Positions 47,063 to 49,382 of a stretch of DNA of 51,053 nucleotides are shown piece by piece (position 1 is the first letter of the stretch; the number at the start of each line of letters is the position of its first letter). Made by a program: the position numbers and the translations under genes. Origin of the DNA: Pseudomonadota bacterium (GTDB lineage Bacteria; Pseudomonadota; Gammaproteobacteria; Burkholderiales; JAKAFK01); NCBI GenBank assembly GCA_021817985.1, contig JAKAFK010000020.1, positions 1 through 51,053 on the forward strand. Direction: 5' to 3'. A model generated the notes under the pieces. That model saw only the letters and a list, made by a program, of their open reading frames with translations, was not told the origin of the DNA and ran no database searches.

Positions 47063-47248
47063 TCAGCTTGCGGCCAGGCGAGCTTCCTGGAAGAAGGTGC
47101 GTTCGGCGTGCTCGCCTTTCTTCCCGATATTGAAGGACGCGACCGGGCGGTGATAGCCCATCACGCGGGTCCACACCTCGCACGGCTGGCGTTCGGCGTC
47201 GGTCAGCACGACGGCCGGTGATTCGACGGGGATCGATAGGTCGGTCAT
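47063..47248 (-). CDS. Stand-alone glycyl-radical segment of anaerobic ribonucleotide reductase
   Basis: This 61-residue protein matches the extreme C-terminus of NrdD: CEVWTRVMGYHRPV followed by FNIGKKGEHAERTFF. Gly31 in RVMGY corresponds to the glycine that carries the radical in class III reductases (RVCGY in E. coli). The preceding gene encodes the rest of NrdD but stops after the zinc module. AGGAG lies 5 bases before the ATG. It is in the same frame as nrdD but separated by two in-frame stops (TAG 47300-47302 and a TGA 10 codons later), so it must be translated separately. Confidence 0.85.
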   Translation of the reverse strand: MTDLSIPVESPAVVLTDAERQPCEVWTRVMGYHRPVASFNIGKKGEHAERTFFQEARLAAS

Positions 47249-47280
47249 GACATCTCCTGTTTGGGTTCAATGGACTCTTC

Positions 47281-47296
47281 GCGCCGCATGCGGCGC
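47281..47296. repeat. 16-base perfect palindrome between the two nrdD pieces
   Basis: GCGCCGCATGCGGCGC reads identically on both strands and lies 3 bases after the nrdD stop, before the ribosome binding site of the small radical-segment gene. In RNA it can form a 6-bp GC-rich stem with a CATG tetraloop. Confidence 0.8.
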
Positions 47297-47299
47297 AGG

Positions 47300-49345
47300 C
47301 TAGGACGCCTCCGCGAGGGCGGCGCGCTTCTTTGCGATGAGTTCCGCATCGCATTTCGGGCAAAACTTGTGCTCGCCCGACAGGTAGCCGTGGCGAGGGC
47401 AGATCGAGAAAGTCGGCGTGATCGTGATATAGGGCAGGCTGAAGCGTTCCAGGGCGCGCCGCACCAGGTTCTTGCAGGCATCTCCGCTGGAAACGCGCTC
47501 GCTCATGTACAGGTGCAACACGGTGCCGCCGGTGTACTTGCGCTGGAGCGGCTCTTGCCGTTCCAAGGCTTCGAAGGGGTCGTCGGTAAACCCGACCGGC
47601 AGTTGAGAGGAATTGGTGTAGTAGGGCATCTCCGCCGTTCCCGCCTGCAGGATGCCCGGAAAGCGCTTGCGGTCTTCCTTGGCGAAGCGATAGGTGGTGC
47701 CTTCCGCGGGCGTGGCTTCCAGGTTGTACATGTGTCCGGTCTCTTCTTGGAAAGCCAGCATGCGGGCGCGCACGTGATCGAGCAGACGTACTGCGAAGGC
47801 ATGCCCTGCCGGGCTCACGATGTCTTCCTGATCCTCCGTGAAGTTGCGGATCATCTCGTTGAGGCCGTTGACGCCGATGGTCGAGAAGTGGTTGCGCAGC
47901 GTGCCGAGATAGCGCCGGGTGTAAGGGAACAGTCCATTGTCCATGTGGCGCTGGATGACTTTTCGCTTGATCTCCAGGCTGTTCTTGGCCATCTCCAGCA
48001 GCTGGTCGACGCGGGCGAAAAGACCGGCTTCGTCGCTTCGGTAGAGGTAGCCCAGACGCGCGCAGTTGAGTGTCACCACACCGACCGAGCCCGTCTGCTC
48101 GGCGCTGCCGAACAGCCCATTGCCGCGCTTGAGCAGCTCGCGCAGATCCAGCTGAAGACGGCAGCACATGGAGCGGATCATGTTGGGCTTCAGATCGGAA
48201 TTGATGAAGTTCTGGAAGTAGGGCAGCCCATACTTGGCCGTCATGGCGAAGAGCAGCTTCGCGTTATCCGAGTCCCACGGAAAGTCGGGCGTCATGTTGT
48301 AGGTCGGGATGGGGAAGGTGAACACGCGCCCCAGGGCGTCGCCCTTGGTCATCACTTCGATGTAGGCGCGGTTGATCATGTCCATCTCGCGCTGTAGGTC
48401 CCCATAGGTGAAGGGCATTTCTTCGCCCGCGACGAGGGGGACCTGCTCCTTGAGATCGTCCGGGCAGGTCCAATCGAAGGTCAGGTTGGTGAAGGGCGTT
48501 TGCGTTCCCCAGCGCGAGGGGACGTTGAGGTTGTAGATCAGCTCCTGGATCGATTGGCGCACGTCGTCATAGGACAGGTTGTCCTTGCGGATGAAGGGCG
48601 CCATGTAGGTGTCGAAGGAGCTGAACGCCTGGGCACCCGCCCATTCGTTTTGCAGCGTCCCCAGGAAATTCACGATTTGGCCGACCGCACTCGACATATG
48701 CTTCGGGGGCGCGGCTTCCACCTTGCCCGGCACACCGTTCAGCCCCTCGTTGAGCAAGGTGCGAAGCGACCAGCCCGCGCAATAGCCGGCCAGCATGTCA
48801 AGATCGTGGATATGGATATCGGCGCCGCGGTGCGCTTCACCCACCTCGGGCGGATAGACGTGATTGAGCCAGTAGTTCGCGACGACTTTGCCGGATACAT
48901 TGAGGATCAAGCCGCCCAGCGAATAGCCCTGATTGGCATTGGCGTTGACGCGCCAATCCTGCTGGTCGAGGTACTCGTTGATGGCGCCGCCCACATCGAT
49001 GACGGTCTTGTGGTCTTCCCGCAGCTTGCGGTGCGTTTCGCGGTAGACGATGTATGCACGCGCGGTCTTCAGGTGATTCGCGCTGATCAGGACCTGTTCG
49101 ACAATGTCCTGGATGCCCTCGATATGGGGCGGGGTCTTGCGGAATTTGTGGATGAGGACCTTGACCGCCTGTGCCGTCAGAAGCTGCGCCTCCTGGTCGC
49201 CGAACTCGCCGCTGGCCTGGCCGGCCCGCGCGATCGCCGAACGAATCTTGTCGGCATCGAACGGCTTGCGCGCGCCGCTTCGCTTGACGACTTCCTGCGG
49301 CAAAGAAATGAGCGCGGCATCCCCATGACTTTTGTCGATATCCAT
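47300..49345 (-). CDS. nrdD: Anaerobic ribonucleoside-triphosphate reductase, main chain lacking the radical loop
   Basis: The 681-residue chain holds an N-terminal ATP-cone (about 10-105, VVKRSGARKPFDADKI) and the ten-stranded reductase barrel with YCAGWSLRTLL and SMCCRLQLD. It ends with the zinc module CPRHGYLSGEHKFCPKCD (Cys649, His652, Cys662, Cys665), then 15 residues and a stop; the glycyl-radical loop that normally follows is on the next gene. It reduces NTPs to dNTPs without oxygen and needs the NrdG activase, not present in this window. ATG 49343-49345 follows GGAGGA closely. Confidence 0.93.
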   Translation of the reverse strand: MDIDKSHGDAALISLPQEVVKRSGARKPFDADKIRSAIARAGQASGEFGDQEAQLLTAQAVKVLIHKFRKTPPHIEGIQDIVEQVLISANHLKTARAYIVYRETHRKLREDHKTVIDVGGAINEYLDQQDWRVNANANQGYSLGGLILNVSGKVVANYWLNHVYPPEVGEAHRGADIHIHDLDMLAGYCAGWSLRTLLNEGLNGVPGKVEAAPPKHMSSAVGQIVNFLGTLQNEWAGAQAFSSFDTYMAPFIRKDNLSYDDVRQSIQELIYNLNVPSRWGTQTPFTNLTFDWTCPDDLKEQVPLVAGEEMPFTYGDLQREMDMINRAYIEVMTKGDALGRVFTFPIPTYNMTPDFPWDSDNAKLLFAMTAKYGLPYFQNFINSDLKPNMIRSMCCRLQLDLRELLKRGNGLFGSAEQTGSVGVVTLNCARLGYLYRSDEAGLFARVDQLLEMAKNSLEIKRKVIQRHMDNGLFPYTRRYLGTLRNHFSTIGVNGLNEMIRNFTEDQEDIVSPAGHAFAVRLLDHVRARMLAFQEETGHMYNLEATPAEGTTYRFAKEDRKRFPGILQAGTAEMPYYTNSSQLPVGFTDDPFEALERQEPLQRKYTGGTVLHLYMSERVSSGDACKNLVRRALERFSLPYITITPTFSICPRHGYLSGEHKFCPKCDAELIAKKRAALAEAS

Positions 49346-49366: not shown

Positions 49367-49382
49367 CCACAATATGTTGTGA
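49367..49382 (-). promoter_or_regulatory. NrdR-like box 1
   Basis: The 16-mer contains CACAATATGTTGTG, a near-perfect palindrome that fits the NrdR consensus acaCwAtATaTwGtgt at the core. It lies between the predicted transcription start and the nrdD start codon. Confidence 0.7.

Follow-up and report, generated by a model that had tools for sequence, protein, structure and literature searches.

An anaerobic ribonucleotide reductase with its glycyl-radical loop encoded by a separate small gene

The class III ribonucleotide reductase studied here resembles NrdD proteins of the NF006126/PRK08270 type (with an MCCR finger loop) in its ATP-cone, catalytic barrel, zinc module and radical-loop sequence. 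It differs from them in that the radical glycine lies on a second chain, separately translated as judged from the gene layout. Class II ribonucleotide reductases are B12-dependent and use no glycyl radical; that of Pseudomonas aeruginosa is reportedly split, and is thus also a ribonucleotide reductase in two pieces, but of another class. YfiD/GrcA of E. coli and Y06I of phage T4 are described, in the available part of PMC8683613, as spare parts of pyruvate formate-lyase. These bacterial and phage proteins are likewise small stand-alone repeats of a C-terminal radical segment (PMC8683613, same part), whereas the small protein described below belongs by sequence to NrdD and not to the YfiD family. 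The partner of YfiD has a radical glycine of its own and the NrdD considered here does not, so the small part looks obligatory. According to the same part of PMC8683613, spare parts have been validated only for pyruvate formate-lyase, and repair of other glycyl radical enzymes by other such proteins is a tempting speculation. A separately encoded NrdD radical loop was not found described in the open literature, most subscription papers lying outside the search.

The window, a stretch of 51,053 nucleotides, is an entire contig of a 3.97-Mb assembly of 184 contigs with a completeness rating of 96%. The features of the locus are as follows.

49367..49382, strand unassigned: NrdR-box-like palindrome 5′ of nrdD, with three mismatches to the NrdR-box consensus and 0.02 occurrences expected in the window
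47300..49345, minus strand: nrdD, large chain of class III ribonucleotide reductase, 681 aa, with ATP-cone, catalytic barrel and zinc module; radical loop absent
Residues 18–106 of the large chain: ATP-cone, match to PF03477
48158..48169, minus strand: finger-loop motif MCCR, residues 393–396, presumed cysteine partner of the glycyl radical
47351..47401, minus strand: zinc module CPRHGY...CPKC, residues 649–665, end of the large chain, read from the sequence
47249..47299, minus strand: intergenic gap of 51 bases, with an in-frame TGA at 47267–47269 and AGGAG ahead of the small gene
47063..47248, minus strand: small glycyl-radical protein, 61 aa, with Gly31 in RVMGY, codon 47156–47158

The CPRHGY...CPKC segment is presumably a zinc module, by comparison with the canonical order. 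The large chain stops 16 residues behind CPKC (residues 662–665), at a TAG codon (47300–47302). Direct reading of its 681 residues revealed no RVxGY motif; the NRDD catalytic barrel is present in this chain and the radical glycine is absent from it. The role of the finger-loop motif is taken from the accessible part of PMC9669993. The two proteins divide the profile of PF13597 (NRDD) between them, the large chain matching positions 2–529 (586 bits) and the 61-aa protein positions 530–562 (29.5 bits, cut-off 26.2). Of the 684 positions of NCBIfam NF006126, the large chain covers 3–657 (1142 bits, cut-off 548) and the small one 649–682. NRDD was the sole Pfam family found for the 61-aa protein at E up to 1, and a phmmer search of PDB sequences with it, also at E up to 1, gave no match. 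The genes share a reading frame with two stops, TAG and TGA, between them, and AGGAG stands directly 5′ of the small-gene ATG. A first-pass annotation of this DNA had described an nrdD ending after its zinc module without RVxGY, a next gene 51 bases on, with its own AGGAG, encoding the missing loop, and a common frame broken by TAG and TGA; all of this was confirmed.

A scan of one genome per species yielded at least 510 confirmed relatives of the small protein, and the best 80 were kept. In 75 of these 80 the small gene lies right after an NrdD that ends behind the zinc module (L015 being counted on a partial NrdD at a contig edge), two are fused (L037 and L083) and three have no adjoining NrdD (L018, L055 and L027, whose 21-residue match was judged spurious). 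The association with a zinc-module-ending NrdD, a point that the first-pass annotation had proposed to check, was seen in most of the best relatives, the two fused proteins and the three solitary genes departing from it. The split share among the best 80 of at least 510 is not a prevalence, for which the evenly drawn surveys below are better.

Since both genes of the window are in one frame with nothing but two stops between them, a sequencing error, a pseudogene or stop-codon read-through giving one chain might be suspected. The relatives make this explanation practically negligible, and it was rejected for the family. They keep the interruption, and the stop-to-start gap in 74 scored pairs varies from −44 to 415 nt (median 33), with 24, 26 and 24 pairs in the three classes modulo 3; a larger set has 27 in-frame pairs out of 82, which matches chance. 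A ribosome-binding site of at least 4 bases precedes the small gene in 70 of the 74 pairs, versus 10.6% of 8316 ATGs in the same DNA. Large and small genes also occur unlinked, as detailed below. The pN/pS of the small gene (38-codon core, window against 78 relatives) was 0.18, and that of the core of a second copy in the window genome 0.16, pN being lowered somewhat by the choice of cores by the motif TRVMGY; the value of 0.18 indicates that the small gene is more than a chance open reading frame. Sequence comparison establishes an NrdD without the loop and a small gene that encodes the loop, with a predicted start of its own and under purifying selection.

The prevalence of the split form was assessed in 150 genomes drawn evenly from the order of the window, the table being tallied by eye. 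NRDD matches were present in 42 genomes, of which 6 were fused only and 36 split, with a large chain ending near NRDD position 530 (two of the 36 matched through an in-frame TAG). The small piece was found in all 36, and in 33 of them it lies within 0.5 kb of nrdD or in frame behind it. In the remaining three, the distance is 2.4 kb (G065) or 9.5 kb (G008), or the gene is on another contig (G057). In G008 and G057 the small gene precedes a radical-SAM gene, taken for a putative nrdG; the G057 protein matches PF04055 and the G008 protein is alike by eye. By sequence, loop-less NrdDs of the surveyed genomes are always accompanied by the small gene. Locus L018 has the same layout, with the small gene beside a radical-SAM gene, and no large NrdD was found in a search of its assembly (G436), which counts against the two-chain reading presented below. 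In a phylum survey, 34 of 299 genomes matched, 11 split and 23 fused by our own reading. In the phylum of Sanguibacter (L083), 43 of 149 genomes matched, and none of the 149 was seen with a separate loop as its sole loop.

A quickly built tree of 87 large chains without the loop region (72 split and 15 fused) requires 6 changes of the split/fused label, at least 5 of them forced by supported branches. The tree has long branches and a root not based on data, so the direction of each fission or fusion is uncertain. The fused L037, L083, L089 and L189/L190 sit among split relatives, and the junction of the L189/L190 fusion coincides with the cut site of split relatives; judging from these chains, the small gene appears to have been re-fused at the same point in several lineages. 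L196, from another NrdD subfamily, is also split, in frame and with one stop between the parts.

A structure was predicted with AlphaFold2 for the read-through chain only, in which the small protein forms residues 700–760. The model, obtained with an 83-row alignment that contains two fused and nineteen in-frame read-through homologues and including a covalent linker, had a pLDDT of 82.7 and a pTM of 0.76, with block means of pLDDT from residue 701 onwards of 63, 95, 83, 85, 87 and 68. VIA-align placed model residues 113–757 on NrdD of T. maritima (4u3e; Z 30.6, 3.1 Å over 517), 146–753 on that of P. copri (8p2s; Z 30.4, 2.8 Å over 517) and 145–737 on that of phage T4 (1h78; Z 30.2, 2.8 Å over 473). 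All five T4 entries end at an offset of 150, which puts Gly31 (model residue 730) on residue 580, a placement read from the ends of the alignment ranges and not residue by residue. We take the Gly580 of the class III radical site to be in T4 numbering. That site is given as Gly580 in the consulted part of PMC2795772. The P. copri offset, read in the same way, puts Gly31 at 712, and the radical residue is named Gly711 in the available part of PMC11226230. In the model, the small protein overlies the radical loop seen in solved NrdDs, and Gly31 falls at the radical site; a position far from the active site, which the first-pass annotation had named as grounds for abandoning its proposal, was not observed. 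A detached radical domain is plausible, because the domain is reported to be highly mobile, being expected to move mostly as a rigid body (PMC11226230, in the part available), and to flip out for activation (PMC12662201, likewise in part).

A class III ribonucleotide reductase of two chains, with the radical on the small subunit acting in trans, is very probable from the sequence data. The docking in trans suggested by the first-pass annotation is well supported, because the small gene accompanies loop-less NrdDs, because it is unlinked from nrdD in two genomes, where it stands beside a putative nrdG, and because re-fusions occur at the same point and the model fits the solved radical loop. 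The small protein would insert its Gly31 loop into the NrdD barrel, in the place of the C-terminal tail of other NrdDs; NrdG, encoded elsewhere in the window genome, would make the glycyl radical on it, and the radical would pass to the finger-loop cysteines C394/C395, starting reduction. Alternatively, the large chain could hold a radical glycine of its own in the HGY of its zinc module, with the small protein as a regulator. HGY superficially resembles a radical motif, and a reported truncation of the C. necator H16 NrdD by about 3 kDa, discussed below, would agree with this. However, the fused relatives L037, L083, L089, L189 and L190 keep HGY alongside RVMGY, for which HGY was rejected as the radical site, and it is Gly31, not HGY, that occupies the solved radical site in the read-through model. 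This alternative is very improbable.

Contig C3 of the window genome encodes one NrdG2 above cut-off (TIGR02495, 202.6 bits, cut-off 131.15) and another ribonucleotide reductase large subunit (PF02867). No further large NrdD was found in this 96%-complete assembly, so that the complete second NrdD considered as an objection by the first-pass annotation did not appear. The radical loop is encoded twice in the genome, in the 61-aa frame and in a second copy (G000:C63:25608-25709; L002, L176) that is 80% identical over the matched stretch. The latter lies in a region that also has genes for a type IV secretion coupling protein, a DUF3363 relaxase, a topoisomerase and a UvrD-type helicase.

Split pairs also occur in named strains. 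On pHG1 of Cupriavidus necator H16, the split pair is followed by nrdG, and RefSeq labels the small gene (H16_RS32675) nrdD, ‘anaerobic ribonucleoside-triphosphate reductase’; the small gene is thus already annotated, its role not being spelled out in the annotation. A 1999 study of strain H16 (then Alcaligenes eutrophus) is said to have observed an oxygen-dependent loss of about 3 kDa from NrdD in air. Should the shortened protein be the large chain, this would argue against a cleavage confined to the small chain. NrdDG of H16 is reported as essential for complete denitrification in the accessible part of PMC2864759, where NrdDG of C. metallidurans is given as Rmet_5137 and Rmet_5139. The skipped locus number is probably the small gene, because the locus from the same strain (L086) is split.

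Two split reductases lie near genes of nitrate or nitric oxide respiration, on pSULKU01 of Sulfuricurvum (L088) and on C. necator pHG1 (L084); the neighbours listed for these loci are NapA and NnrS, and nitric-oxide reductase. On pS11L-3 of Bradyrhizobium japonicum (L085), the NrdD match does not start until residue 312, and the annotation shows an IS3-like transposase upstream. This nrdD looks truncated, while the small gene and an activase gene are annotated.

Relatives of the small piece were found on 68 IMG/VR contigs, several of which are near-copies of each other. In 64 of the 68, no NrdD match was found in the DNA examined, which extended at least 252 bases upstream. Of the other four, L170 is a split pair, an NrdD lies 2 kb upstream in L174, and in L118 and L127 the copy starts at the contig end, making the neighbours uninformative. 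Whole records, which may be fragments, were searched with NRDD for 50 of the 68: the loop piece was found in all 50 and the large NrdD in none, one record (G450) having a second NRDD match below cut-off (11.5 bits). The 52 viral copies with the full motif comprise 44 distinct cores, with a pN/pS of 0.245 over 23 independent pairs. The viral cores were chosen by TRVMGY, which makes the invariance of the glycine partly a matter of construction; the eight peptides left out start with MGY, and none of the six search octamers contains the glycine. Three viral small proteins tested match positions 113–162 of PHROG 4132, a family 179 positions long with no function assigned. Searched with the window protein at E up to 0.001, the annotated phage collection yielded no match; with a viral relative as query and E up to 1, two partial matches appeared, one of them inside an annotated reductase gene.

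Among 131 neighbouring ORFs at 48 loci, called mechanically, endolysin, spanin, terminase, portal and major head genes were recognised, one or two ORFs each. In L142, genes for major head, head-tail adaptor and neck proteins lie upstream of the small gene, and in L110 a tape-measure gene ends 0.6 kb upstream of it. Extra unlinked copies beside a split pair are present in 2 of the 36 split genomes of the order survey, that of the window and G105, and in G437 and G438, which were chosen for having one. In G105 the extra copy follows a GH19 endolysin-like gene and adjoins genes resembling holin and spanin by eye, a setting like the lysis cassette of a prophage. Plasmid pALVIN01 of A. vinosum carries one copy, and the large NrdD is absent from its record.

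Six viral copies (L140, L152, L155, L158, L165 and L172) have an extra N-terminal cysteine-rich stretch (approximately C-x-H ... C ... C-x-x-C), which is perhaps a metal-binding module of its own.

A second kind of stand-alone loop was found in the class of G560, which we guess to be Coriobacteriia. A separate protein of about 120 aa, with the radical loop of another NrdD subfamily at its end, occurs in 14 of 149 genomes. Each of the 14 also gives a second match, which lies in a long frame of 780–890 codons and is 69–81% identical there, except that the matched stretch contains a stop in two and the open frame is 510 aa in one. This second match is a whole NRDD in G560, G548 and G636, and presumably also in the remaining genomes. 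In the proteins of about 120 aa (L211:3712-4074, L213 and L218), an uncharacterised N-terminal stretch is joined to an NrdD radical loop, and a fused NrdD is present in the same genomes. With stand-alone and fused loops in one genome, the second type comes closest to YfiD. Versions of it occur at seven IMG/VR loci that show no NrdD in the DNA examined, which in L224 extends only 0.3 kb upstream.

The small chain may be exchangeable: after cleavage by oxygen, or damage by nitric oxide in denitrifiers, its replacement would cost 61 residues and not some 740. Phages and conjugative elements would carry this piece alone, keeping the enzyme of the host running. We hold this for possible, at slightly under even odds; the exchangeable part would then exist in at least two loop types. 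The first-pass annotation had also raised the idea of a spare part, and it is strengthened by the copies that stand alone on viral contigs, on a plasmid, in a prophage-like lysis cassette and next to conjugation genes. The second stand-alone type, found in genomes with a fused NrdD, strengthens it too. Against exchange, most genomes have one copy of the small gene immediately following nrdD, which is what a permanent subunit would show. Plain gene fission could have produced such a subunit, tightly bound, doing the job of the fused tail and never exchanged, the stand-alone copies being passengers or serving another need. The close linkage in 33 of the 36 split genomes favours this, and so does the alternation of fission and fusion on the tree, by which the two forms look equivalent. 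It explains less readily why viral copies are under purifying selection without a large chain, or why 14 of 149 genomes hold the second type on its own in addition to a fused loop; a permanent subunit is a serious possibility, short of an even one. The viral and plasmid copies might also be decoys: an unattached loop could compete with the proper one for access to the barrel or to NrdG, and no large chain was found in any of the 50 viral records searched. This is unlikely: the extracted copies keep the radical glycine, and a phage would presumably gain little by blocking precursor supply.

The enzyme concerned makes DNA precursors without oxygen, and split NrdDs with their stand-alone viral relatives are concrete candidates for spare parts, some in named cultured strains. 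If this is right, class III reductases would have to be annotated anew, the radical glycine being not missing but in the next gene; a role could be proposed for PHROG 4132, and support of host DNA synthesis could be proposed for a phage gene of about 50–70 residues.

In Eggerthella phage EL753P1 (OP172808.1, L220), the phage nrdD ends after the zinc module, and an unannotated downstream loop sequence shifts frame just before the radical glycine. Within a single open frame, a stretch of about 1 kb, perhaps an intein, interrupts the NrdD match of this phage. NrdD matches interrupted inside open frames of 1121–1716 codons, perhaps likewise by inteins, were also seen in G524, G553, G566, G606 and G638.
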